From Pandoraea pneumonica (GTDB lineage Bacteria; Pseudomonadota; Gammaproteobacteria; Burkholderiales; Burkholderiaceae): a stretch of DNA of 64,000 bases. Positions 30,185 through 43,774 of this stretch are shown one piece after another. The stretch covers positions 558,001 through 622,000 of the forward strand of contig NZ_CABPSK010000003.1 in the NCBI RefSeq assembly GCF_902459645.1. The letters are read 5' to 3'. How positions within the stretch are numbered: position 1 is the stretch's first letter; the number at the start of each line of letters is the position of its first letter. The position numbers and the translations under genes were made by a program. The notes under the pieces were generated by a model. That model was not told the DNA's origin. It saw only the letters and a list, made by a program, of their open reading frames with translations, and ran no database searches.

Positions 30185-31384
30185 ATGATCGTTACAGATA
30201 TGACGCAAAAATCCACGATGCCACCCGTCGTCTACTTACTAGGGCTCACCGTCTTTGCGATGACCACGGCCGAATTCATGGTCGCCGGCATGATGCCCGC
30301 GCTCGCCCATGCGATGAACGTCGGCATTGGCGACATCGGCAACTTGATTTCGCTTTATGCCCTCGGCATGACCATTGGCGGCCCAGTACTCACCGCCCTG
30401 CTGCTGGCCTTGCGCACGCCGCACAAGCAAGCCCTCGTATGGCTGCTCATCATCAACGTCGCCGGTGGTGTGTTGGCCGCCGTTGCTACGCGTTATGAAG
30501 TGATGGCGCTCGCGCGCATCATCATGGGCGTGGCCAGCTCCGCCACCTTTGGTGTCGCCCTCACGTTGTGCGCCGACCTCGTCGCCCCGTCGGTGCGTGG
30601 GCGCGCCGCCTCGTTCGTGCTTGGCGGCTTGATGTTCTCGCCCGTGGTCGGCGTGCCGCTCACCGCATTCATCGAGCAGCACTATGGCTGGCGCGCCAGC
30701 TTCTGGCTTGTCGCCGTGCTCGCTGCCCTGTGCACCGTGGCCGTCGCGCTGTGGGCCCCGGCCACAGAAAAGCGCGAGACGGTGAGCCTCGCCGCCGAAT
30801 TCCGCTCGCTGCTCAATCGGCCGCTATGGGCTGCATTCATCACGAGCGGTCTGATCATCGGTGCCACGTTCGCCGCGTTCAGCTACTTCTCGCCGATCTT
30901 TCTGAACGTCGCCGGGGTCTCGGCGGCCACGATCCCGAATCTGCTCGCCATGTACGGCATCGCCAACATCATCGGCAACGCCGTGACCGGACGCTTTGCG
31001 GACCGTCACACGCTGACCGTTCTGATCGTGGGGTTGAGTGTGCTGGCGCTTGCGTTGGTGAGCTTCGCGTTGTGGGCACAGATCACGCCCATCGGCATCG
31101 CCGCCTTCGCCGCAATCGGTCTGACCGGCGTGTCGCTTAACCCCGCCATGGTGGCGCGCGTGATGCGCGCTGCTGCGCCGGGGCCACTCGTGAATACGAT
31201 GCACACGTCGGTGATCACCGCTGGCTTGGCATTCGGCACGTGGGCAGGCGGGTCGGCCATCGATGCGGGCTACGGCATGCGCGCGCCGCTGTGGATCGGT
31301 GCTGCCATGGCAGCCGTCGGTCTGACCAGCCTGCTGCCGTATCTTCGTTCCGGGCTGGCACAAACGGCTGACGCCACCTGCTGA
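30185..31384 (+). CDS. MFS transporter (AraJ/DHA1-like efflux)
   Basis: 399 residues, 12 predicted TM helices. The N-terminus FAMTTAEFMVAGMMPALA is typical of the AraJ/YdhP/chloramphenicol-efflux branch of DHA1 transporters. Two ATGs (30185 and 30200) are possible, neither with a strong ribosome site; the first is used. It follows a TetR gene and an intrinsic terminator, so it has its own promoter or depends on read-through. The substrate is unknown. Confidence 0.88.
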   Translation: MIVTDMTQKSTMPPVVYLLGLTVFAMTTAEFMVAGMMPALAHAMNVGIGDIGNLISLYALGMTIGGPVLTALLLALRTPHKQALVWLLIINVAGGVLAAVATRYEVMALARIIMGVASSATFGVALTLCADLVAPSVRGRAASFVLGGLMFSPVVGVPLTAFIEQHYGWRASFWLVAVLAALCTVAVALWAPATEKRETVSLAAEFRSLLNRPLWAAFITSGLIIGATFAAFSYFSPIFLNVAGVSAATIPNLLAMYGIANIIGNAVTGRFADRHTLTVLIVGLSVLALALVSFALWAQITPIGIAAFAAIGLTGVSLNPAMVARVMRAAAPGPLVNTMHTSVITAGLAFGTWAGGSAIDAGYGMRAPLWIGAAMAAVGLTSLLPYLRSGLAQTADATC

Positions 31385-31438
31385 TCCGAAGCAGCGGCCA
31401 TCTCGTCTGCGCTATCTGAGTTTCACGCCGTCTCTGGG

Positions 31439-32344
31439 CTACCCCTGCGCGATCTCCGCATCGATGCTTTCGCGCAAATACGTCCAGAGACGGTTCGCCA
31501 CGGGGCCGTGCGGGCCGTCGGTGCGCCGGGCAGCGACGATTTCCTCGGTGTGCACAGGCAGGTATTTCCCTGCGATGGACTTCAGCGCGCCGCTTCGCAG
31601 TTCCTCCTCGATCAGATGCGCGGGCAAATGCCCCCAGCCCAAACCTTGCAAGATGACATCCTTCTTCATCGCCTGATCGGCCACCGTGCATTGATGCGCG
31701 CCTTCGATTACGAAGAAGCTTTCACCACTCGATGCCCGCGCCGAATCTCGCATCACACATTGCGTGTAGCCGCGCATATCCACTGGGCGCACCGCTCGGG
31801 GCAACGGCGTGGTGAGCATCTGCGGCGCCACTACCGGTACGAGCCGCACGTTGCAAAGATCGATCCATGCGATGTCGGCGTCGCGTTTATCGACGCGATG
31901 CAAGATGAGGTCCGCATCGCCCGCTTTGAGCCGCTCCATCGGGCCGCCAACCGTCTCGAAGTGCAGTTGCAAGCGCGTGTGCGAGCACTGCGCGAAAAAG
32001 CGCGCAAGCAACCCCAGCAACGTCTCACGCGGGCATAGGTCACCAATCACCACGTTCAACTCGCTTTCCTCGCCCATCGCCAACTGCGCCGCGTGATGCC
32101 GCAACCCGGCCGCTTCGCGCAACAGCGGCTGCGCGCGCGCGTAGAACGACTGTCCCGCTTCGCTCAACTTCACGCGATAGCCGCTTCGGTCGAACAACAC
32201 GAGCGCAGTCTGACGCTCCAGCCGCGCCACCGCAGCGAAGACCGCCGGATGCGTGCGATGCAATACCTCCGCTGCCGCCTGAAAACTGCCTTCGCGGATA
32301 ACGGCGTCGAAGCATTGCAGGTCATGCAGGGTGAAATCCATCAT
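31439..32344 (-). CDS. LysR-family transcriptional regulator
   Basis: 301 residues from the ATG at 32344 (AGAG upstream; a second ATG follows directly). HTH QAAAEVLHRTHPAVFAAVAR is unusual in having His-Pro-Ala-Val where LysR proteins commonly have Gln-Pro/Ser-Ala-Val/Leu. The effector domain is otherwise regular. Divergent from the alpha/beta hydrolase gene, with a 26-bp inverted repeat just 12 bases before this start codon. Confidence 0.9.
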   Translation of the reverse strand: MMDFTLHDLQCFDAVIREGSFQAAAEVLHRTHPAVFAAVARLERQTALVLFDRSGYRVKLSEAGQSFYARAQPLLREAAGLRHHAAQLAMGEESELNVVIGDLCPRETLLGLLARFFAQCSHTRLQLHFETVGGPMERLKAGDADLILHRVDKRDADIAWIDLCNVRLVPVVAPQMLTTPLPRAVRPVDMRGYTQCVMRDSARASSGESFFVIEGAHQCTVADQAMKKDVILQGLGWGHLPAHLIEEELRSGALKSIAGKYLPVHTEEIVAARRTDGPHGPVANRLWTYLRESIDAEIAQG

Positions 32345-32355
32345 GTCATCTCTTT

Positions 32356-32381
32356 TTACAAAGATCGTTCGATCTTTGTAA
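32356..32381. promoter_or_regulatory. Long perfect inverted repeat, operator candidate
   Basis: TTACAAAGATCG (32356-32367) and CGATCTTTGTAA (32370-32381) are perfect 12-bp arms around TT. It lies between the divergent LysR and hydrolase genes. Confidence 0.65.
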
Positions 32382-32454
32382 TTTAAATCATTTCTCGCCT
32401 CGACCAGAATGGTCTTCACCAACTGACCCAGTTGAATTTCTTCCGGAGACTACG

Positions 32455-33279
32455 ATGGACAACTATTCCTTCTTCGACACCACCGACGGCGCTCGCATCG
32501 CTTACCGCATTGATGGCGGCAGCAAAGACGCGGCGGACAAACCCGTGCTGGTGCTCTCCAATTCGATCGGCACCGATCTGCATATGTGGGACGCGCAAAT
32601 TCCCGCGTTCTCCCAACACTTCCGCGTGCTGCGCTACGACGCGCGCGGCCACGGCGCGTCGAGTGTGCCGCCCGGGCCGTATTCGCTCGACCGTCTCGGT
32701 GAAGATGTCGTCGACTTGCTGGATCATCTGCATATCGCCCGCGCGCACTTTCTCGGCCTGTCGCTCGGCGGCATCGTGGGGCAGTGGCTTGGGGTGCATG
32801 CGGCCACGCGCATCGATCGCCTGATTCTGAGCAACACGGCGCCCTATCTTGGTCCGGCAGAAGTTTGGGACGCGTCCATCGCCGCCGTGCTGCAAGCGAG
32901 AGATATGCGCGAGACAGCGCAGACGTTCCTGCGCAACTGGTTCCCGGCTCACATGCTTGGCGACGGAGATTCGGCTAACGATGCGGCCCACGCGCTCGTC
33001 GCCCCGTTCCGTAAAACGCTGCTCGCGACGAATCGTCACGGGCTCGCCGGGTCTTGGGCGGCGGTGCAACAAACCGATCTGCGGCGCGCGATTGCCGACA
33101 TCACGCGGCCCACGCTTGTGATTGCCGGAGAACACGACACGGTGACCGCCGCCGCCTTCAGCAGGACGATGGTGGAGACGATTCCAGGCGCACGCCTGCA
33201 TGTCTTCCCGGCAGTGCATTTGTCGAATGTGGAATTCCCGGAAGCGTTCTCGGCGGCAGTCATCGCGTTTCTCGAGTGA
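32455..33279 (+). CDS. Alpha/beta hydrolase, 3-oxoadipate enol-lactonase-like
   Basis: 274 residues with a canonical alpha/beta hydrolase fold: nucleophile elbow GLSLGG, acid in AGEHDTVT, and the catalytic His in FPAVHLSNVE. LSNSIGTDLHMWDAQIPAF near the N-terminus and the oxyanion region strongly resemble PcaD (3-oxoadipate enol-lactonase) of the beta-ketoadipate pathway. None of the other pca genes is next to it, so the true substrate may be another lactone or ester. Start follows GGAG. Probably regulated by the divergent LysR. Confidence 0.85.
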   Translation: MDNYSFFDTTDGARIAYRIDGGSKDAADKPVLVLSNSIGTDLHMWDAQIPAFSQHFRVLRYDARGHGASSVPPGPYSLDRLGEDVVDLLDHLHIARAHFLGLSLGGIVGQWLGVHAATRIDRLILSNTAPYLGPAEVWDASIAAVLQARDMRETAQTFLRNWFPAHMLGDGDSANDAAHALVAPFRKTLLATNRHGLAGSWAAVQQTDLRRAIADITRPTLVIAGEHDTVTAAAFSRTMVETIPGARLHVFPAVHLSNVEFPEAFSAAVIAFLE

Positions 33280-33402
33280 ATCCACCAAACAACGCGACGG
33301 ATTTCGATCGGCAACAACATTTTGAGATGCCATGGAAATGATGGGCTGCGGGCTGCCATAATCGCCTCATTCTTGCGCGCGCCCCTCACGTCCAATTAAA
33401 AA

Positions 33403-34026
33403 ATGACGCCCAATCGAAGACCCATAAAATCGCGTTCGAACGAAATCATCCGTGGGTTGGCGAGCCGCCTCGCCACTTGCGGCATCACACCGAATCAGGT
33501 CTCGACAGCCAGCGTTGCCTTTGCCGCTATCGCGGCAGCCGCACTCTTGTACAGCCACACCTGGCCCGCGATGTTGATCGCGATTCTGGGTATTCAACTT
33601 CGCTTGCTTTGCAACGTGGTCGACGGTCTGATCGCCGTGGAGGGCGGCAAGAAATCACTGCTCGGCGCGCTCTACAACGAATTCCCCGACCGGATCGCCG
33701 ACAGCCTGTTGCTGGTGGCATCCGGTTACGCCGCAGGAATTCCCTGGCTCGGTTGGCTGAGCGCGCTGCTCGCGGCGTTGACAGCCTATGTGCGCGTGTT
33801 CGGTGGCGCGCTCGGCCTCGAACAGCGCTTTCTCGGCCCGATGGCAAAGCAACAGCGCATGGCACTGCTGAGTGCCGCTTGCCTTTTGGTAATTGTTGAG
33901 ACCGCGTTGCAGCGTCCCTATTACGCGATGGGCATCGCCCTTGCGGTCATTGCCGCGGGTAGCGCTTTGACTTGCGTCACGCGCACCCGCGCAATTGCGC
34001 GCGATCTGGCGGCAGCATCCTCATGA
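33403..34026 (+). CDS. CDP-alcohol phosphatidyltransferase family protein
   Basis: 207 residues, about six TM helices. The family motif D-x2-D-G-x2-A-R-x8-G-x3-D-x3-D is recognisable but altered: N71 for the first Asp, D74-G75 kept, V79 for Arg, then G88 and N92-EFP-D96-RIA-D100. Members transfer a phosphatidyl group from CDP-diacylglycerol to an alcohol. The substitutions suggest a divergent subfamily or altered metal coordination. It is the first gene of a coupled three-gene lipid module (ATGA overlap with the acyltransferase). Confidence 0.82.
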   Translation: MTPNRRPIKSRSNEIIRGLASRLATCGITPNQVSTASVAFAAIAAAALLYSHTWPAMLIAILGIQLRLLCNVVDGLIAVEGGKKSLLGALYNEFPDRIADSLLLVASGYAAGIPWLGWLSALLAALTAYVRVFGGALGLEQRFLGPMAKQQRMALLSAACLLVIVETALQRPYYAMGIALAVIAAGSALTCVTRTRAIARDLAAASS

Positions 34027-34646
34027 ATAACTTCCAGCAAAGACGGCTGCTCGGTCTGGTGCGGCTCGTGGTGGGCGCACATGGCCGGTTTCTCTTGCCC
34101 CCATCGGCATGCCAGACGATCTACTTCGCCAACCATACGAGTCATATCGACACGCTGGCGATTCTGGCCGCATTGCCGGAGTCGCTGCGCGAGAACGTGC
34201 GCCCGGTGGCCGCGCGCGACTACTGGGACAGCTCGCCCAGCAAGCGCTATATCGCACAGCGAATGCTCGATGTCATTCTCATCGACCGCTCGGGTGAGCG
34301 CACTGCGGAGAACGCCACGGATCCGCTGGCACCCGTCGACGCGGCGTTAGATGTCGGCGAGTCGGTCATTCTGTTTCCCGAAGGCACCCGCAATGCCGAC
34401 GGCGAAGTACACGCATTCCGAAGCGGACTGTACTGGCTCGCCAAGCGCCACCCGGATGTCGATCTGGTGCCCGTCTATCTGTCGAATCTCGCACGTGCGA
34501 TGCCCAAGGGCCGCTTTTTGCCGATTCCATTCATGTGCGAAGCCATGTTCGGCAGCCCCTTGCATCTTCTGCCCGACGAACCGAAGGCCGCGTTTCTCGA
34601 CCGCACTCGCCAGCACATCATCGATCTCAGAGACCGCAAGGGATAA
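34023..34646 (+). CDS. Lysophospholipid acyltransferase (PlsC-like)
   Basis: 207 residues; the ATG overlaps the previous stop (ATGA). The acyltransferase motifs are NHTSHID with H38 and D43 (HX4D) and FPEGTR at 118-123. Such enzymes acylate lysophosphatidic acid or similar acceptors at the inner membrane. Together with the flanking CDP-alcohol transferase and CdsA-like protein it would form a self-contained route from a lysophospholipid through phosphatidate and CDP-diacylglycerol to a phospholipid. Confidence 0.9.
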   Translation: MNNFQQRRLLGLVRLVVGAHGRFLLPPSACQTIYFANHTSHIDTLAILAALPESLRENVRPVAARDYWDSSPSKRYIAQRMLDVILIDRSGERTAENATDPLAPVDAALDVGESVILFPEGTRNADGEVHAFRSGLYWLAKRHPDVDLVPVYLSNLARAMPKGRFLPIPFMCEAMFGSPLHLLPDEPKAAFLDRTRQHIIDLRDRKG

Positions 34647-34649
34647 GCC

Positions 34650-35588
34650 ATGCCTACCATCTTCTGGCAAACGATCATCGGTGTGATCGGCCTGCTGGCC
34701 GTGGCATCGATCGCCGGTTACTTGCTCAAACGCCGACACGGACCGGATAACGACACGATCCGCAATCTCAATCAACGGGTGGCCGCATGGTGGCTCATGG
34801 TGATCGTGATCGCCGGCGCACTGCTGCTCGGCAACTACGCGACGATCGTCTTGTTTGCCATTTGTGCGTTCTTCGCGCTGCGGGAATTCATCACGCTCAC
34901 CCCCACCCGGCCTGCCGATTACTGGCCGCTGGTGCTCGTCTACTACGTGGCGCTCCCGGGCCAGTTCCTGCTGCTCGGTCTTGGCTGGTACGGCTTGTTC
35001 ACGGTATTCATTCCCGTGTACGTGTTCTTTGCACTGCCCGCCGCCGCGGCGTTGGCGCAGGACACGAATGGCTTTCTCGAGCGCAATGCCAAGGTGCAAT
35101 GGGCGGTGATGGTCTGCGTGTTTTCGCTTAGCCACGCCCCGGCATTGCTGATGCTGCAAATTCCGGGCTACTTCACGACGAACGCGCCGCTGTTGCTGTA
35201 CTTCCTGCTCGTCGTGCAGTCGAGCGACGTCTTTCAGTATGTCTGCGGGAAGCTTTGGGGCAAGCGCAAGCTCTCTCCTCACGTCAGTCCATCCAAAACG
35301 TGGGAGGGACTGCTCGGCGGCGGCGCAATGGCCGTCGTACTGGGCGCGCTGCTCCATGGCCTAACGCCGTTCCATCACTGGTGGCAATCGACCCTGATGG
35401 CCTTCGTGATCGTGATCGGTGGGTTCATCGGCGGGCTGGTGCTCTCAGCTGTCAAACGCTCGCTCGGCGCCAAGGATTGGGGGGTCATGCTGACCGGACA
35501 CGGCGGCATGCTCGATCGCCTCGACTCGATCTGCTTCTCCGCCCCGATCTTCTTTCACCTGACCCGGTACTTCTTTACACCGGCGTGA
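34650..35588 (+). CDS. Phosphatidate cytidylyltransferase (CdsA-like)
   Basis: 312 residues, polytopic. The CDS signature occurs near residues 267-290: SAVKRSLGAKDWG, then GHGGMLDRLDS, and an upstream HVSPSKTWEG. It makes CDP-diacylglycerol from phosphatidate and CTP. It starts 3 bases after the acyltransferase stop, clearly the same operon. Since the essential housekeeping cdsA normally sits near dxr/uppS/bamA, this is probably a second, dedicated copy. Confidence 0.9.
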   Translation: MPTIFWQTIIGVIGLLAVASIAGYLLKRRHGPDNDTIRNLNQRVAAWWLMVIVIAGALLLGNYATIVLFAICAFFALREFITLTPTRPADYWPLVLVYYVALPGQFLLLGLGWYGLFTVFIPVYVFFALPAAAALAQDTNGFLERNAKVQWAVMVCVFSLSHAPALLMLQIPGYFTTNAPLLLYFLLVVQSSDVFQYVCGKLWGKRKLSPHVSPSKTWEGLLGGGAMAVVLGALLHGLTPFHHWWQSTLMAFVIVIGGFIGGLVLSAVKRSLGAKDWGVMLTGHGGMLDRLDSICFSAPIFFHLTRYFFTPA

Positions 35589-35690
35589 GCGATCACTGCG
35601 CTCGAACGTCAAGAGTGCACACAACGGGCACAAACCGGGGTGGCAAGGGCCGCGCAGTGTAAACTGCTGGGTTTTTGACCCCCCAGTGGA

Positions 35691-36497
35691 ATGGTGCAAG
35701 TGCCCCGGCGTCCTGTAATCAGCGCCCCGACACTCATACGCTCTCTGGCCCGTCTGAGCACGTTCACGCCGCCTGAGGCCGCGCCGTCGCTCTCGGACCG
35801 CATGAGTGAGTGGCTGGGCTGGACCGACGCCATCGCCCTGTCGTCGGCTCTCAAAGCCTCCCCGCCGGCCGAAACGCCCGGCGCGCGGGCGGCTGCGCCT
35901 GTCGCGACCGGCGCGGCGCAAGCCCTCGCACGCGTGCGCACGGACCTCGCCGCAGCCATCGCCCGCGATTGCGGACTGGCCGCAGCGCCCGGCGGGCAAA
36001 TTCGCGCCATGAGTGCCGCCGAGCGTCAACGGGCCGCTTCGTTTGCCGAATTTCCCGCTTATCGGCAGCGCTACGCCACGTCGCAACAGACGATGGACAC
36101 GGCCATCAGTGCCTTGCGCACCCGCCTGCGCGCACAACTGGCGTTGATGTCGCCAGATGCCGCCAAGCTGGCCGGCGTCGATGCCGTGATGGAGCGCGTG
36201 CTGGGCGCCCGCGAGCGCACCCTGCTGGCCGGCGTGCCGAATCTGCTCGAAAGCCATTTCGTGAAGCTGCGAGATACCGAGCAGGCCGCCCTCGCCGCGC
36301 CGCGCGTGCCCGGTGCCCCGCCGCTCGCCCCGGCAGGCACGTGGCTCGACACCTTCCACCGGGATATGCAGAGCATCCTGCTCGCAGAACTGGATATCCG
36401 CCTTCAACCGCTTGAAGGGCTGCTCGCCGCCCTGCTCGCGAATGAACTCGGCGAAAACGTTTGTGAACCCGGACAACATGACCCGTTACCTCGTTGA
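35691..36497 (+). CDS. DUF3348 family protein
   Basis: 268 residues, no signal peptide and no TM segment, so presumably cytoplasmic. Ala/Arg-rich helical protein; the C-terminal part GTWLDTFHRDMQSILLAELD followed by IRLQPLEGLLAALLANE is the best conserved-looking block. It begins a four-gene unit whose neighbours are a MotA/TolQ-like membrane protein, a MotB/OmpA-like protein and a DUF2894 protein; its stop overlaps the next start by 20 bases. I recognise it by position and sequence as DUF3348 but no function is known to me. It may be a cytoplasmic adaptor of the complex. Confidence 0.82.
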   Translation: MVQVPRRPVISAPTLIRSLARLSTFTPPEAAPSLSDRMSEWLGWTDAIALSSALKASPPAETPGARAAAPVATGAAQALARVRTDLAAAIARDCGLAAAPGGQIRAMSAAERQRAASFAEFPAYRQRYATSQQTMDTAISALRTRLRAQLALMSPDAAKLAGVDAVMERVLGARERTLLAGVPNLLESHFVKLRDTEQAALAAPRVPGAPPLAPAGTWLDTFHRDMQSILLAELDIRLQPLEGLLAALLANELGENVCEPGQHDPLPR

Positions 36498-39400
36498 TCT
36501 CATTGCCTTTGTCGCCGGACTGGCCGTTGTCGGCTGGATCGCCATCGGCTATGCCGGCACCAACACCCTCGCGCTGGCCGTCACGCTGCTCATCGCAGCC
36601 GTCTATCTCATCGGTGCGCTCGAACTCAAACGCTTCCACCAGTCGTCGGACGCGCTCGCAAAAGCCGTCGGCGGCCTGAGCACCGCTCCTGCGTCACTGC
36701 CGTCGTGGCTCGACACACTGCCCGCTGGCCTGCGCACCGCCGTGCGCCTGCGCGTGGAAGGCGAGCGCGTCGGCTTGCCCGGCCCGGCACTCACGCCGTA
36801 TCTGGTCGGCCTGCTCGTGCTGCTCGGCATGCTCGGCACCTTCCTCGGCATGGCCGCCACGCTGCGCGGCACCGGCATCGCCCTCGAAGGCGCGACCGAC
36901 CTGCAAGCCATTCGCGCATCGCTCGCCTCACCCGTCAAAGGCCTCGGCTTCGCGTTCGGCACCTCGGTCGCCGGTGTCGCCACGTCGGCTATGCTCGGCC
37001 TGCTCGCCGCACTCGCGCGTAAGCAGCGCGCCCAAGTCGTGCAAGCGCTCGACGCACGCATCGTCACCACGCTGCGCGGCTTCTCGCAGCAGCATCAGCG
37101 CGAAACCACCCTGCAACTGCTCCAGCAGCAAGCCGCTGCAATGCCCGCGCTCGTCGACCGCCTGCAAGAGATGATGGCCGCCATGGAGCGCCAAAGTCAG
37201 GGCCTCGGCGAACGCCTCGTGGCCAATCAAGACGCGTTGCACGCCCGTACCGATGCGTCGTACGCGCAACTCACCAGTGCGATGCAGCAGTATCTGAAAG
37301 ACAGCGTCGCGACGACGGCCAGCGCCGCCGGTGCCGCCATCCGCCCGGAAGTCGAGGCGACGATGGCCAGTCTGGCGCGCGAAACCGCGTCGTGGCATCA
37401 AACCGTCTCGGGCGCAATGCAAGATCGGATGGACGGCTTGTCCGATCGCTTTGAAGCGACGACGGCTCGCGTGGCCAACGTCTGGAAAGATTCGCTCGAC
37501 GCACAGTTGCGCACGAATGCGTCGCTCGCCACCGATTTGCGCGGCGCGCTCGGCGAATTTGCGCAGACGTTCGAGTCGCGCTCGGCCCGCCTTATCGACG
37601 ACGTTGCGACGCGATTGGAAGGCGCGACCTCACAGGTCAGCACCGCGCACGCCGGTGTCGCACAAACGTGGGAAACGTCGCTCGCAGCACAACAACGCAC
37701 CAGCGATGCGCTCGCCAAGGAGCTGGGCGCCACGCTCACACAATTTGCGCAAACGTTCGAGACCCGCTCCGCTGGCTTGCTGGCTGACGTGACCACGCGT
37801 CTCGACAACGCGACCGGCAGCATCGCCACCGCACAGACGACCGTCGCGCAAGCCTGGGAACAAGCGCTCGCGCAACAGCAGAGCGCTCACAACGCGCTCA
37901 CGCAAGACCTCGGTGTGGCCCTGGCGCATTTCGCGCAAACCTTCGAAGCCCGCTCGACGGCGCTGCTCGGCGATGTGGCTGCCAAGCTCGATGCCACGAG
38001 CGGCAACGTCACGGGCGCTCACGAACGCGTGGCGCAGGTGTGGGATCAAGCGTTGACGCAACAACGCGCCGCGCACGACACGATGGCGCAAGCACTCGGC
38101 ACGGCGCTGGAACGCTTCGCACAGACCTTCGAGACACGCTCGAATGCGCTGCTCAGCGATGTGGCGGTGAAGCTCGACACCACCAGCGGGAATGTGTCCG
38201 GGGCGCACGAGCGCGTGGCGCAAGCATGGAACGAATCGCTGGCGCTGCAAAAGGCCGCCAACGCCGCGCTGACGGCCGATCTCGGCACCGCTTTGGCGCA
38301 ATTCACCGAAACGTTCGAACAGCGTTCTGCGCACTTGGTCGACGGTGTGAGCACGCGCACGGAAGGGGCGATGCAAAGCGTCGCCGAAACGGCAGCCGTG
38401 GTATCCGGCGAGTGGAAGCAAGCCATCGGTGCGCAGCAACAAGCCAACGATGCCCTCACGCAGAACCTCGCCGCCGCCCTTGAACGCTTCGCAGACACGT
38501 TCGATACGCGTTCGACACAGTTGCTGCAAGGCGTCTCGACGCAAATGGACAGCGCCTCGACCAATGTCGCCCAAGCTTGGCGCGAGGCCATCGCCGACCA
38601 CGCCCGCGTAAGCGAACAACTGGCCAGCGGCAACCAGCAACTCGTCGCCGCAACGACGACGGCATTCACCGAACATAGCGCATCGCTGCTCGACGCGCTG
38701 AGCGCTGCCAACGCCGCGCATCACGACGCCACGGCGCAGCGCGAAACTCAACGTCTGTCGGCATGGACCGAAACCCTCGAAGGCACGCTCGCCACGCTGC
38801 GCGAACAATGGCAGCAGATGGGCGCACAAACGGCCAGCCAGCAACAAACGATTTGCGAGACGCTCACGCGCACCGCGCTCGACATGTCGGAACAAACGCG
38901 CCGCAACGCGAGCGACACCATCGCCGAGATTTCTCGCCTGATGCAGACCGCTGCGGAAGCCCCGAAGGCCGCCGCGGATATCATCGCCGAGTTGCGCCAG
39001 AAGCTTTCCGAGAGCATGGTGCGCGACAACGCGATGCTCGAAGAGCGCTCGCGTCTGCTGGAAACACTCGGCACGCTGCTCGACACCGTGCGCCACGCGG
39101 GCAACGAACAACGCGCGGCGGTCGACGAGCTCGTCACCACGTCCGCACAGTTGCTCGAACGTGCCAGCGCCAATCTGGGCGACACCATTGCCGCGCAAAC
39201 CGAGAAGCTGGCCGCCGCGTCGGCGCAAGTCACCGGCAGCGCCGTGGAAGTCGCAAGCCTGGGCGACACGTTCGGTGCCGCCGTGCAGGCCTTCGGCGAA
39301 TCGAACACACAACTGCTCGACCATCTGCAACGCATCGAAGCCGCGCTCGACAAGTCGATGGCGCGCAGCGACGAACAGCTTGGCTACTACGTCGCACAAG

Positions 39401-39504
39401 CACGCGAAGTGGTGGAATTGAGCGTGATGTCGCAAAAGCAGATTCTCGAAAACCTGCAACAGCTCGGCGGTGCCCGCGCGCAACCGGGTAGCGCGGCAGC
39501 ATGA
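36478..39504 (+). CDS. DUF802 protein: four-TM MotA/TolQ/ExbB-like membrane protein with long repeat-bearing tail
   Basis: 1008 residues from the ATG at 36478 inside the end of the DUF3348 gene. TM1 about 5-25, TM2 30-48, TM3 104-128 (LVGLLVLLGMLGTFLGMAAT, the LGT-x-G signature of MotA/TolQ/ExbB) and TM4 152-180 (GLGFAFGTSVAGVATSAMLG). Residues 185-1008 are a long, almost Pro-free, Ala/Gln/Thr/Ser-rich helical tail. Six tandem repeats of about 62 residues each begin with Trp at 336, 398, 460, 522, 584 and 646 (last one 55). This is the layout of ZorA of Zorya systems: stator channel plus long cytoplasmic tail. Translationally coupled to the MotB-like gene behind it. Confidence 0.88.
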   Translation: MTRYLVDLIAFVAGLAVVGWIAIGYAGTNTLALAVTLLIAAVYLIGALELKRFHQSSDALAKAVGGLSTAPASLPSWLDTLPAGLRTAVRLRVEGERVGLPGPALTPYLVGLLVLLGMLGTFLGMAATLRGTGIALEGATDLQAIRASLASPVKGLGFAFGTSVAGVATSAMLGLLAALARKQRAQVVQALDARIVTTLRGFSQQHQRETTLQLLQQQAAAMPALVDRLQEMMAAMERQSQGLGERLVANQDALHARTDASYAQLTSAMQQYLKDSVATTASAAGAAIRPEVEATMASLARETASWHQTVSGAMQDRMDGLSDRFEATTARVANVWKDSLDAQLRTNASLATDLRGALGEFAQTFESRSARLIDDVATRLEGATSQVSTAHAGVAQTWETSLAAQQRTSDALAKELGATLTQFAQTFETRSAGLLADVTTRLDNATGSIATAQTTVAQAWEQALAQQQSAHNALTQDLGVALAHFAQTFEARSTALLGDVAAKLDATSGNVTGAHERVAQVWDQALTQQRAAHDTMAQALGTALERFAQTFETRSNALLSDVAVKLDTTSGNVSGAHERVAQAWNESLALQKAANAALTADLGTALAQFTETFEQRSAHLVDGVSTRTEGAMQSVAETAAVVSGEWKQAIGAQQQANDALTQNLAAALERFADTFDTRSTQLLQGVSTQMDSASTNVAQAWREAIADHARVSEQLASGNQQLVAATTTAFTEHSASLLDALSAANAAHHDATAQRETQRLSAWTETLEGTLATLREQWQQMGAQTASQQQTICETLTRTALDMSEQTRRNASDTIAEISRLMQTAAEAPKAAADIIAELRQKLSESMVRDNAMLEERSRLLETLGTLLDTVRHAGNEQRAAVDELVTTSAQLLERASANLGDTIAAQTEKLAAASAQVTGSAVEVASLGDTFGAAVQAFGESNTQLLDHLQRIEAALDKSMARSDEQLGYYVAQAREVVELSVMSQKQILENLQQLGGARAQPGSAAA
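37483..38577 (+). repeat. Six tandem coding repeats of about 186 bp (62 residues)
   Basis: Within the DUF802 protein, residues 336-700 consist of six units. Each starts W-x3-(L/I)-x-(A/L)-Q-x-(R/Q/A) or a close variant, carries FAQTFExRS or a variant (for example FTETFEQRS, FADTFDTRS) at unit positions 26-34 and ends V-A-Q or a variant. Five units are exactly 62 residues; the sixth is 55, one heptad shorter. Confidence 0.85.
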
Positions 39505-40166
39505 GCCACGACTTCGACTCCGACTTCGCCGACAGCGATGTTGGCGCCGCAGCGCCGACGTGGGCCGTCTTCGGCGACTTGATGTCGGTCATGCTCGGTG
39601 CGTTCGTGCTGATCATGCTCGGCGTCATCGGCGTGCAGCTCGAACTGTCGGCCAAGCTCGAGCGCGAAGTGAAAGAGCGTCAGGCCGAAACGCAACGCCG
39701 CGAGACGCTGGAAAAAGCGCTCGCCGGACCGCTCGCGGGTGGACGCGTCACGATCGTGAACGGCCGCATCGGCATCAGCGGGAACGTGCTGTTCGCGCTG
39801 AACTCCGACCAATTGCAGCCGCAGGGGCGCGAAGTGCTGCGCAGCCTCGCCGCACCGCTTGCCGCCTATCTCAAAGTGAGCGACGAGATTCTGATGGTCA
39901 GCGGCTTCACCGACGACCAGCAAGTGCGCGAAACGAACCGGCGATTTGCCGATAACTGGGAGCTGTCCGCACAACGGGCGCTCACGGTCACACGCGAATT
40001 GATCGCGGCGGGCATTCCGCCGTCGTCGGTGTTCTCCGCCGCGTTTGGCGCCGAGCAACCCGTCACGTCGAACGCCGACGAAGCCGGTCGCGCGAAGAAC
40101 CGGCGCGTAGAAATTGCCCCGATGCCACGCAGCAGCGCGGGGAATACCGGGAAGTCGAATGGCTGA
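39501..40166 (+). CDS. MotB/OmpA-like protein, partner of the MotA-like gene
   Basis: 221 residues; start overlaps the DUF802 stop (ATGA). One TM helix at about 24-45 is introduced by FGDLMSVMLGAFVLIMLG: D26 sits where MotB has its proton-carrying Asp (ADFMTAMMAFFLVMW context). A short charged helix follows, then an OmpA/MotB peptidoglycan-binding fold from about residue 90 to 210 (NVLFALNSDQLQPQGREVLR, GFTDDQ, NRRFADNWELSAQRALTVTR, RAKNRRVEI). Thus it likely anchors the complex to the cell wall and carries ions through the TM Asp. It functions with the preceding four-TM protein. Confidence 0.9.
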   Translation: MSHDFDSDFADSDVGAAAPTWAVFGDLMSVMLGAFVLIMLGVIGVQLELSAKLEREVKERQAETQRRETLEKALAGPLAGGRVTIVNGRIGISGNVLFALNSDQLQPQGREVLRSLAAPLAAYLKVSDEILMVSGFTDDQQVRETNRRFADNWELSAQRALTVTRELIAAGIPPSSVFSAAFGAEQPVTSNADEAGRAKNRRVEIAPMPRSSAGNTGKSNG

Positions 40167-40956
40167 CGATCCGCGCGATCTCCCGGAAACGTTGACGGCG
40201 CCAGAAGCGTCCGTCTGGCAAGCGCAACTCGACGGCTGGCGTGCACAGCAAGCCGACAAGCGGGATCCGGTTCGCTTTCACCTTATTGAAACGTTGGCTC
40301 GACGCGCGGCCACCTTCACGGGCGAAACGCGGCGCGTGCTGGACGAGCGCTTGCAAGTGCTAGTCGATGCGTTCACGAAGGCGCTGGCGGCGCGCGAGGT
40401 CTCAGTCACTGATGACAGCGCGGCGACGCCACAAGGCGCACCGTCGCCGCTTTCCCTGCTGATCGCGGATATGACCCAGCGCGTTGGTGAGCGGCCCGCG
40501 CAAGCGATGCCGCCGATCAAGCGCCCAGTGCAGTCAGCGCCTGCCGCGCGGCAAGCGGGGCCCGCTGGATCGGCCGCGCCGACAGTTTCGGCGGCTTCGA
40601 CAGTTTCGCCCGCACCGGTCACCACGCCCACGGTCATCTCGACCGGCGACGGTTTCGAAGACATGGACGTGCTGGAGTATTTCCGCGAAACGTGGTCGAA
40701 GCTCAGCACCGACGGCAATCTGCGGCAGTCGCTCGCCCAAGTGCCAGAGAATGCCGGGCCGTTGAATTCCAGCCACCTCGTGCACCGCGCGCTCTCGCTC
40801 ATGCACGACGTTTCGCCCGACTATCTGCGCCACTTCCTGCGCCATGCCGATGCCCTCTCGTGGCTCGAAGACATGGACACAGCAGGTGCGATGCGCAACA
40901 AGAGCGCGGCACGTGTCGCGGCGTCGGGCAAGCCGTCGCGCGCGAAGGCGCGGTAA
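40159..40956 (+). CDS. DUF2894 family protein
   Basis: 265 residues, start inside the end of the MotB-like gene (8-base overlap). No signal peptide or TM. N-terminal helical region (1-75), a Pro/Ala/Ser/Thr-rich linker (about 115-155) and a conserved-looking helical C-terminal block (LEYFRETWSKLSTDGNLRQS, then NSSHLVHRALSLMHDVSPDY followed by LRHFLRHADALSWLED). Ends in a basic tail. Likely a cytoplasmic or membrane-peripheral partner of the stator-like complex. Function unknown. Confidence 0.85.
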   Translation: MADDPRDLPETLTAPEASVWQAQLDGWRAQQADKRDPVRFHLIETLARRAATFTGETRRVLDERLQVLVDAFTKALAAREVSVTDDSAATPQGAPSPLSLLIADMTQRVGERPAQAMPPIKRPVQSAPAARQAGPAGSAAPTVSAASTVSPAPVTTPTVISTGDGFEDMDVLEYFRETWSKLSTDGNLRQSLAQVPENAGPLNSSHLVHRALSLMHDVSPDYLRHFLRHADALSWLEDMDTAGAMRNKSAARVAASGKPSRAKAR

Positions 40957-41213
40957 TCGGCTTTGGCCAACGTTTGCGGAATCGGCGGCATTGGCGACAT
41001 CAGGCGGCAGTGGGCCCCGCCGGACGCCAACTTGCCAGTGAAGGCCGTTCCGGGCGATAATCGCGCTCGTTCCCGCTGCCAACGCGCGGGAAAATCCTTT
41101 GAAAATCATCGTGTTGGGCGTAAGTCACCCGTACGCTGGCATCACTTGCCGAGCGCGCCGCCCGCCGCAGCACTTCCTCGATAAGCCCTCGCACCCGACG
41201 GCTTTCTGCTTCC

Positions 41214-42014
41214 ATGACGAACCACGGACACCCGCCGGCTGACGACGCGCAACCGGCCCACGACGACGCTGCCGACCTCGACGCGCCGCAAACTTCTGAC
41301 GCGCAAGACGGCGACACCCAAGTCGGCCCGGACGGCGTTGCGCATCCGCGCCGCATTCGCAGCTTCGTGCGCCGCGCTGGCCGTAGCTCGGAAGCGCAAA
41401 AGCGCGCCTTCGATACGCTCGGCCCGCAGTTCTTGGTGCCCTATACGCCCGACGCCCTCGACTGGCCCGCAGCGTTCCATCGCCCGAATGCGCCGCGTAT
41501 CCTCGAAATCGGTTTCGGCATGGGCGACGGCACCGCGCACATTGCGAAAGTGCGTCCCGACGACGATTTCCTCGGCGTGGAAGTGCACGAACCCGGCGTG
41601 GGCGCACTGCTCAAGCTCATCGGCACGACCCCGCTCTCGAACGTGCGCATCATTCAGCACGACGCCGTGGAAGTGGTGGAGAACATGCTGCCCGAAGCGT
41701 CGCTCGACGGCGTGCACGTGTTCTTCCCGGACCCGTGGCACAAGAAGCGCCACCACAAGCGCCGCCTGCTCCAACCGCCGTTCGTAGCACTCCTCGCTTC
41801 GCGCCTGAAGCCGGGCGGCTATCTGCACTGCGCGACCGACTGGCAGGAATACGCCGAGCAGATGCTTGAAGTGCTGGGCGCTGAGCCGACGCTCGAGAAC
41901 ACCGCAGCCGATTACGCACCGCGTCCCGACTATCGTCCGGTGACGAAGTTCGAGAATCGCGGCCTGCGTCTCGGTCACGGCGTGTGGGATCTGGTCTTCA
42001 AGAAGCGCGGCTAA
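41214..42014 (+). CDS. trmB: tRNA (guanine-N7)-methyltransferase
   Basis: 266 residues. SAM-binding [15 protein letters not shown] and the TrmB signature [16 protein letters not shown] are both present. It makes m7G46 in the variable loop of tRNAs. The N-terminal 50 residues are an Asp/Ala-rich extension not needed for the fold. Convergent with uppP, separated by a bidirectional terminator. Confidence 0.96.
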
Positions 42015-42044
42015 ACGACGCGATTGAAAGGCTGAGGCATACGA

Positions 42045-42073
42045 AAAAGGGCACCGCGAGGTGCCCTTTTTTC
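42045..42073. terminator. Bidirectional intrinsic terminator
   Basis: AAAAAGGGCACC (42045-42056), loop GCGA, GGTGCCCTTTTT (42061-42072): a perfect 12-bp stem with A and T tracts, between convergent trmB and uppP. Confidence 0.9.
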
Positions 42074-42104
42074 ATTGCGTCAATCTGTGATGCTTGGGTA
42101 ATGC

Positions 42105-42947
42105 TCAGTCGGCCCAGACCACCAGCCCGCTGTAGCCGGTCGCCAGCACCACCAGACCGAACACGATGCGGTACCACGCGAACGCCGTGAAGTCGTGCGA
42201 CGCGATGTAGCGCAGCAGCCAGCGCACGCAAATGAACGCGCTGATGAACGCTGCCACGAAGCCGATACCGAACATACCGATGTCGTCCACCGACAGAATC
42301 GAACGCGATTTATACAGTTCATAAACGGTCGCGGCGAACAGCAGCGGGATCGCAAGGAAGAACGAGAACTCGGTCGCCACCTTGCGCTCCAGCCCGAACA
42401 TCATGCCGCCGATGATCGTGGCGCCCGAGCGCGACGTGCCGGGGATTAACGCGAAGCACTGCGCGAAGCCGACCTTCAGGGCGTCCACCCACGTGAGTTC
42501 GTCGATGGAATTAACGCGTGGCAATTTGCCAGCCTCGACATTACGACGGTTATGCCGCTCGACCAAAAGAATGATCACGCCGCCAACGATAAACGCCGTC
42601 GCCACCACCGTCGGGTTGAACAGCACCGCCTTGATATGCGCACCGAACTGCTTCGCCAACAAAGCCGCCGGCAGGCAACCGAGAATCACGTTGAGCGCGA
42701 AGCGGCGCGACTTGCTATCGCGCGTCAGCCCGGCCACGACGTGCACGATCCTCGCGCGGAATTCCCAGCACACGGCCAGAATTGCGCCGAACTGAATCAC
42801 GATCTCGAAGACCTTGCCCTTCTCGTCGTTAAAGTTGAGCAGACTGCCGGCCAGAATCAGGTGACCGGTCGATGAGATCGGGAGGAATTCGGTCAGACCT
42901 TCGACCACACCGAGAATGATCGCTTTAAGCGCCAGCAACAAGTCCAT
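42105..42947 (-). CDS. uppP: Undecaprenyl-diphosphatase (BacA/UppP)
   Basis: 280 residues, about eight TM helices. Both active-site blocks are present: [17 protein letters not shown] (residues 16-32) and [10 protein letters not shown]. The enzyme recycles undecaprenyl pyrophosphate released by peptidoglycan and glycan polymerisation and contributes to bacitracin tolerance. ATG preceded by AGGAAACC. In this window its carrier is also used by the WecA-like enzymes at 58.5-60.7 kb. Confidence 0.96.
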
Positions 42948-43065
42948 GCAATGGTTTCCTGAGAAGTCTTGAAATCGGAAGAGAGGTTTTACGCGGAAAA
43001 AATTAGGTGAGCCGTAGGGCGCTAAACGGCCGAACGATTTAACGCCGAAGCTTGGCAGCGCCGGA

Positions 43066-43686
43066 TCAACGGGAATCGAATTTGACGTTCACACCGTGCG
43101 AAAGCACGGTGATCTGGCCCGGCTGGCGTGCCACGCCGCCAATGGTGAGTTGCTCGGGCTTGAACGTGTAGATCGGCGCGCCTTGCAGCAATTGCGTGGC
43201 GAGCAACGCCCCCGCCGCGTTCAATTGACGCGACCAGCGCTCCGGCAAGCCATCGATGGTGAACGTCTCGACTTCCGGATCGCGCAGCACCACGGACATC
43301 GTGGCCGGGTCGTAAGCCAACGCGCTGTCGATGGCCAGCGTGCCGGTCAGCGGCGCGCCGCCCAGCGGATGCGTCACCGTGGCGTCGACCGCCACTGCCA
43401 GGCGGTTGCGCTCGGGCAGCAGCGTCAGGCGCGGGTGCGACAGGTTCACATCGAGCACGGCCAGCACGCGGCGATCGAACGGAAACTTACGCTCCAGCGC
43501 GCGCTGCAATTGGCCTTCGGAAAAGGTGTAGTCGTTGCCGAACGGCAAACCGGCACAGGCGGCAAGTCCAGCAGCAAGCGCCGAAGCACCGGCGAGTGTC
43601 AGCCAGCGACGGCGTGCGGGATCGACCGCCTCAGATGCCTCGCACTGCTGATAATTTTCTCGATCCGAATGCGATTGACGCGCCAT
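43066..43686 (-). CDS. DUF1439 (YceB-like) lipoprotein
   Basis: 206 residues. The N-terminus has [20 protein letters not shown] followed by a Cys, combining a twin-arginine pair with a lipobox LAAC at about residue 41, so it may be a Tat-exported lipoprotein. The mature part ([20 protein letters not shown] and on) is a DUF1439 domain as in E. coli YceB, a lipid-binding-like fold of unknown function. The ATG at 43686 follows GGGGAC; a longer frame upstream is less likely. Confidence 0.85.
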
Positions 43687-43774
43687 GTCCCCATCCAAAA
43701 CAGGGCGCCCAGCGCCCGACACGCGCGACTATAGCACTCGCACATGACGTGGAACTACCGGTGCCTATTGGTAC

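Follow-up and report, generated by a model that had tools for sequence, protein, structure and literature searches.

Zorya systems of types I and II are described in PMC11890865, where 8VVN is identified as a ZorAB structure, as motors of five ZorA and two ZorB subunits. There, a membrane aspartate of ZorB, its peptidoglycan-binding domain and the tail of ZorA are all required for defence, the cytoplasmic effectors act on DNA, and the sizes of the components vary little inside either of the two Zorya families studied. Zorya type III was defined by Payne et al. in 2021 (PMC8565338) through its gene content, in which zorA and zorB are flanked by genes for DUF3348 and DUF2894 proteins, and a Stenotrophomonas copy placed in E. 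coli reduced plating for one or more of the phages tried. The subject here is a four-gene operon with this content in a 64,000-nucleotide stretch of Pandoraea pneumonica DNA (assembly GCF_902459645.1, contig NZ_CABPSK010000003.1, positions 558,001 to 622,000), referred to below as the window. With a probability of roughly 0.8, it represents a full anti-phage system of Zorya type III, which Pandoraea maintains as a near-core operon.

The four genes lie on the same strand with intact reading frames and successive overlaps of 20, 4 and 8 bases (DUF3348/ZorA/ZorB/DUF2894; Table 1). Each of the four products has a match among the PADLOC models for type III, namely ZorA3, ZorB3, DUF2894 (PDLC00653) and DUF3348 (PDLC00658). 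The arrangement, with zorA adjoining zorB across the 4-base overlap, the DUF3348 gene upstream and the DUF2894 gene downstream, is that of type III, and no difference breaks membership; the ZorA protein has 1008 residues here against a commonest length of about 698. The two flanking proteins are named by their domains throughout, since the ZorF and ZorG labels conflict: DUF3348 is ZorF and DUF2894 is ZorG in the naming of PMC8565338 and of a second paper, and the PADLOC-DB 2.0.0 entries PDLC00652-00658 carry the two swapped, with DUF3348 as ZorG3 and DUF2894 as ZorF3.

Table 1. Features of the Zorya type III operon and its upstream region, in window coordinates
Feature	Position	Strand	Evidence
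Conserved promoter-like element, 22 nt, [CA]GTGTAAACTGCTG-NN-TTTTT	35655..35676	+	Conservation upstream of the operon
DUF3348 protein, 268 aa	35691..36497	+	PF11828 E=7e-77; PDLC00658 E=7e-85
ZorA type III, 1008 aa	36478..39504	+	PADLOC ZorA3 E=0, 1384 bits; PDB 8vvn_C E=5e-5; conservation profile
ZorA tail spacer, 62-residue (186 nt) repeats bearing DUF802	37438..38530 (borders approximate)	+	PF05650; lag-62 identity peak; Tandem Repeats Finder
ZorB type III, 221 aa	39501..40166	+	PADLOC ZorB3 E=1e-112; OmpA PF00691 E=1e-17
DUF2894 protein, 265 aa	40159..40956	+	PF11445 E=2e-53; PDLC00653 E=2e-88

A preliminary description of this DNA, made from the letters alone, had given the order of the four overlapping genes and the 1008-residue protein with coordinates that are confirmed here, and had correctly noted the LLGMLGTFLGM motif of ZorA and Asp26 of ZorB. 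Its proposal of a ZorAB-like motor of unknown function holds in the kinship with ZorAB, which is seen both in the match to 8vvn_C and in the PADLOC ZorA3 and ZorB3 matches. The supposed novelty does not survive: given four matches to type III models and a system described in 2021 (PMC8565338), "unknown function" is out of date, and the proposed presence of DUF3348 and DUF2894 in place of ZorC, ZorD or ZorE was right and already in print. The locus belongs to an established kind of anti-phage motor rather than a new one, in a copy that is ordinary for its bacterial group.

The survey of gene neighbourhoods suggested in that description bears out a fixed order. The complete set, in the order DUF3348-ZorA-ZorB-DUF2894 and on one strand, was found in 57 of 60 loci of a first set that includes the window, and in 77 of 80 loci of a second set of named loci. 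The three exceptions of the first set (L081, L084 and L099) miss a gene where the contig ends, and those of the second (L189, L203 and L204) have less than 1,300 bases of sequence upstream of ZorB. Among the 77, the DUF3348 gene is truncated by the contig start in L217, L238 and L244, L193 has disrupted DUF3348 and ZorA frames, and in L236 the reading frame of ZorA stops about 1 kb short of ZorB; the last two look either damaged or decayed, or affected by sequence or assembly errors. The closest named ZorB genes, with 89-92% identity, come from six Pandoraea records.

The near-core status is supported by the distribution of DUF3348, which is present in 31 of 32 Pandoraea genomes (split into two pieces in one); the only genome lacking it measures 1.2 Mb, and no inner stop occurs in any of the listed DUF3348 matches of the genus. 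In samples of the family, order and class, which overlap, it was detected in 98/150, 13/250 and 7/274 genomes, respectively. The 52 family genomes without DUF3348 also lack a true ZorB3 (they score 78.5 bits at best, where the window reaches 373); 41 of them are of at most 2.8 Mb and 11 of at least 3.6 Mb, and all positives reach at least 3.3 Mb, so that 98 of the 109 family-sample genomes of at least 3.3 Mb carry the operon. In the same 150 genomes, Cas1 was found in 15, and NF033915, the one other ZorA model searched, exceeded its cut-off in three; eight more genomes have matches at 67-83 bits, below the cut-off and at separate sites, and many weaker matches are the type III ZorA itself. Since PMC13064858 (2026) calls type III Zorya of R. 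solanacearum a highly conserved defence system, the core status is not wholly new. The distribution of Zorya subtypes is called typical of anti-phage systems in PMC11890865.

Within Pandoraea, the gene trmB follows within about 2.5 kb downstream in 25 of 31 loci; of the remaining six, two reach a contig end first, one has about 8 kb in between, and three are diverged loci with no trmB in the available stretch. In a quick ZorAB tree, 27 Pandoraea copies form one clade, and the genomes G023 and G030 carry a different lineage. The synonymous divergence (dS) of the four operon genes correlates with rpoB distances with rho values of 0.56-0.71 (325 pairs of 26 loci, one of the 27 having been dropped for unequal rpoB length), compared with 0.68 for trmB and 0.48 for uppP (276 pairs for each of the two), with a Mantel p of 0.001 in each case. 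Median ratios of nonsynonymous to synonymous divergence (dN/dS) are 0.055 for ZorB, 0.074 for the ZorA head, 0.099 for the whole of ZorA, 0.12 for DUF3348 and 0.30 for DUF2894, the reference values being 0.11 for trmB (25 loci) and 0.116 for uppP (24 loci). Beyond the genus, the flanks differ and the sites are unrelated, the correlation with rpoB goes down to 0.26 at the family level, and two copies from f14, a family of the same class in another order, fall in a starred fork of the quick tree together with the window's family and f175. This nesting hints, as far as sequences tell, at an old transfer, although the placement of f14 among the Burkholderiaceae inside the fork has only 80-87% support. 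From the differing flanks, the low correlation and the f14 placement taken together, the operon seems to have moved from genus to genus and to have been retained afterwards.

Two observations concern single Pandoraea records. The ZorAB copies outside the Pandoraea clade (L082 and L089, in the G023 and G030 genomes of 4.4-4.5 Mb) have no trmB in the available stretch, and represent either a replacement or a misplaced genus. G026 holds two type III operons (L084 and L085), whose DUF3348 proteins are 52% and 86% identical to that of the window, the diverged one being cut by a contig end; this genome (89% complete, 4% contaminated) is possibly a mixed assembly.

The ZorA protein consists of a membrane head of about 195 residues and a tail of about 800. 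The head has four transmembrane helices, read off hydrophobic stretches and not taken from a predictor, and the LLGMLGTFLGM motif occupies residues 115-125. A profile of 23 heads (that of the window plus 22 drawn from the 80 named loci), searched against all PDB sequences, found the type I ZorA 8vvn_C (5e-5) as its sole match at E <= 0.01, with no chain of MotA, ExbB, TolQ or GldL. The Pfam family MotA_ExbB was likewise not matched in ZorA at E <= 0.001. The preliminary description had spoken of a "MotA-like DUF802". As DUF802 (PF05650) covers the tail repeats only, this was a mislabel, the MotA-like part being the ZorA head. Residues T121, T162 and S163 are invariant in 23/23 aligned heads and, placed by analogy, would form a Ser/Thr ring facing the aspartate in the pore.

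The sequence of ZorB predicts one transmembrane helix, carrying Asp26, followed by an OmpA-like peptidoglycan-binding domain (PF00691), and Asp26 is invariant in 23/23 aligned proteins chosen from the 60 loci. A profile of these 23 matched 69 PDB sequences, among the best 60 of which MotB, PomB and OmpA-like chains rank at the top with values up to 1e-19; it also aligned over almost the full length with the ZorB chains 8vvn_B and 8qyd_F (about 1e-8 and 1e-7). Because this profile is unspecific, it is the ZorA head together with PADLOC, and not the ZorB profile alone, that places the pair with Zorya. At residue 136, a Phe (Tyr in some) precedes the T/A-D of the OmpA-like domain, where ZorB of types I and II seems, by motif, to carry the His that is required for peptidoglycan binding according to PMC11890865.

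The AlphaFold model of DUF3348 is all-helical with fair confidence (predicted local distance difference test, pLDDT, 82.9; predicted template modelling score, pTM, 0.77). DUF2894 is predicted, with low overall confidence (pLDDT 70.2, pTM 0.36), to have two helical domains with a variable linker between them, giving an N-terminal helical domain, the linker, a conserved C-terminal GPLNS domain and a basic tail. Its GPLN motif is invariant in 51 aligned proteins, and the last 18 residues have a mean charge of +5.6, which could indicate nucleic-acid binding. The linker (window 40400-40650) is rich in Pro, Ala and Thr, and hypervariable even inside the genus. In the literature library that was searched, no mechanism was seen for either protein.

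If types I and II are taken as a guide, the mechanism of type III is most likely the same as far as the tail, with other effectors beyond it. Five ZorA and two ZorB subunits would assemble in the inner membrane as a motor driven by ions. Once a phage breaches the wall, the periplasmic domain of ZorB would contact the peptidoglycan, ions would flow past Asp26, and ZorA would rotate or shift the long helix of its tail; the conserved tip at the far end may then present or activate DUF3348 and DUF2894 to block the phage. Gene content and order, family membership, the conserved motor residues, the all-helical predictions for the two small proteins and the constraint on the tip come from the sequences themselves, and the 5:2 assembly, the ion flow, the rotation and the docking at the tip are what we infer.

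Several findings weigh against an anti-phage role. The operon occurs in nearly every genome of its genus and in many of its family, unlike most defence systems, and its constraint is at the level of housekeeping genes, with the exception of DUF2894, which evolves faster than its neighbours. It sits among ordinary genes, as judged from nine neighbours scanned at 30185-43722, and its ZorB alone is not specific to Zorya, since ZorB chains score lower in its profile search than those of MotB, PomB and OmpA-like proteins. In DUF3348 and DUF2894 no known fold was recognised, be it of a nuclease, a helicase or another kind, which leaves the published model of nuclease recruitment without its nuclease here. 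In addition, the published evidence found for type III defence comes from a single plasmid-borne operon in E. coli. Two of these points make type III unusual: it is kept nearly like a housekeeping operon, when most defence systems come and go, and it has no recognised nuclease.

Such properties would fit a housekeeping motor for envelope surveillance, which would sense wall stress in every cell and signal through its tail, with phage protection as a by-product of overexpression. Its presence in 31/32 Pandoraea and in 98 of the 109 larger family genomes, when Cas1 and NF033915 reach only 15 and three of 150, speaks for this explanation, as do dN/dS values of ZorB and the ZorA head below those of trmB and uppP, and operon distances that track rpoB as those two genes do. 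However, the operon is absent from 11 of the 109 larger genomes and is therefore dispensable, its sites are unrelated between genera with f14 hinting at an old transfer, and DUF2894 changes faster than its neighbours. A related operon also protects against phage (PMC8565338), and defence is favoured over surveillance as the first job because this relative has been shown to protect; surveillance as the primary function is considered unlikely.

Less probable again is abortive infection by ion leak, in which DUF3348 and DUF2894 would merely gate ZorAB and the opened channel would kill or stall the infected cell. It agrees with the missing nuclease fold and with the proposal in PMC8565338 that ZorF and ZorG regulate ZorAB, but it gives no reason for a long tail that ends in a conserved tip, nor for the basic C-terminus of DUF2894, and the type I and II effectors in the cytoplasm act on DNA (PMC11890865). 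A decaying relic without present function can be put close to zero. Broken or gapped frames in two of the 77 complete loci (L193 and L236) indicate that decay or misassembly occurs elsewhere; in the window the frames are open, the DUF3348 matches of the genus are free of inner stops and dN/dS is low, and the constraint, which extends to each of the four genes, already contradicts a relic.

Compared with Zorya types I and II, the operon shares a MotA-like ZorA with a long cytoplasmic tail and a MotB-like ZorB with a membrane aspartate and an OmpA-like domain, both with sequence kinship, and differs in having DUF3348 and DUF2894 as its other two genes; identity with type I or II was rejected on the absence from the operon of ZorC plus ZorD or ZorE. 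Flagellar MotAB and PomAB share the paired folds, and the ZorB profile matches chains of MotB and PomB with E values of about 1e-16 to 1e-19. Among the 25 of 35 matches listed, PRK09041, PRK07734, PRK06667 and PRK09038 stay below their cut-offs, on which flagellar MotAB was rejected, and only PRK09040, a "hypothetical protein" model, passes. ExbBD and TolQR have the same MotA/ExbB/TolQ label in PADLOC, but the ZorA-head profile (E <= 0.01) matched no ExbB, TolQ or GldL chain, and the tail is very long here.

A further difference from types I and II is that the length of type III ZorA varies about twofold, largely in steps. Among 134 sequences (after exclusion of two copies truncated at contig ends and of a broken one, and with some species counted twice, once per collection), it ranges from 555 to 1229 residues. 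Lengths cluster at 884, 946, 1008 and 1070 in Pandoraea (step 62), at about 698, 785, 872, 959 and 1046 in Paraburkholderia and Cupriavidus (step 87), at 855, 935 and 1015 in Burkholderia (step 80), and at 699 and 768 in Ralstonia (step 69); offsets of 4 to 11 residues are also seen, and several lengths fall outside any series. In the window protein, DUF802 (53 positions) matches seven stretches of the tail, best at 321-373, self-identity peaks at a lag of 62, and Tandem Repeats Finder reports an array of period 186 at 37930-38288. Trees of the 27 Pandoraea loci require at least eight changes in the number of repeat units.

The helical period of the tail, calculated from hydrophobicity, is 3.65 residues in the window and 3.64 across ZorA tails, between a heptad (3.5) and a hendecad (3.67). 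Of 129 distinct ZorA genes, 78 have tail arrays in Tandem Repeats Finder, 105 arrays in total; the 24 whose consensus period in bases is not divisible by three were excluded from the comparison that follows. With multiples dropped, the nine units found in at least two arrays lie on average 0.04 turn off whole turns, against 0.25 expected (p = 0.0005, corrected for the choice of period), and the inclusion of rarer units (16 units, multiples dropped) gives p = 0.003; five rare units (24, 48, 86, 130 and 133) are off register. Thus, the length of ZorA appears to change largely in lineage-specific steps that keep the helical register.

Conservation in 25-residue blocks of 23 distinct ZorA proteins of 695-702 residues is 0.87-0.97 at residues 101-175 (transmembrane helices 3 and 4) and 0.68-0.80 before them, falls to 0.62-0.70 in the middle of the tail (326-475) and rises to 0.77-0.93 from 476 to the end. 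The distal 200 residues are hence conserved nearly like the membrane core, and the middle less. The extra repeats of the window protein map to mid-tail, its conserved tip lies at about 786-985, and from these alignments we infer a constant distal tip on a rod of variable length. A tentative and rather doubtful extension would make type III a near-core surveillance motor of Burkholderiaceae with the ZorA tail as an evolvable ruler, in which the head is constant, the tip docks DUF3348 and DUF2894, and the spacer changes by whole register-preserving units as selection tunes the reach of a nuclease-free effector. This reach into the cytoplasm would be roughly 55 to 155 nm, if the tail were one straight helix. 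The natural species constitute a ready-made series of tail lengths, so that the role of the tail in Zorya is testable with existing variants.

About 32 nt upstream of the DUF3348 gene, a promoter-like element is conserved. Of 134 loci, a count in which some species occur twice, 122 have its core, TGTA[AC]A[AC][TC], no more than 70 nt from the start of DUF3348, and 116 of those have it 30-34 nt before the start; the 12 loci without it include the most distant ones. Homology between pairs of loci of the same genus begins about 35-60 nt upstream of the start codon. In the whole genome of the window, GTGTAAACTGCTG has one exact copy and two copies with one mismatch, compared with five control matches. 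By these comparisons, the promoter-like element travels with the operon across genera. One guess from its letters is that TAAACT serves as a -10 box without a -35 box, with transcription perhaps starting near the T run; that such a start site might respond to nucleotide pools is speculation.

The nine scanned neighbours include no helicase or nuclease family and no flagellar family. Just upstream of the operon (33403-35588) lies a cassette of a CDP-alcohol phosphatidyltransferase-like gene (slightly below the Pfam cut-off), an acyltransferase and a cytidylyltransferase, for which tblastn (1e-6) gave no match at the other 30 Pandoraea loci, 28 of them with about 7 kb of upstream sequence. In L096 (6852-6959), a distant member of the class, the operon starts about 30 nt past a tRNA-Arg gene, which suggests an insertion at the tRNA.

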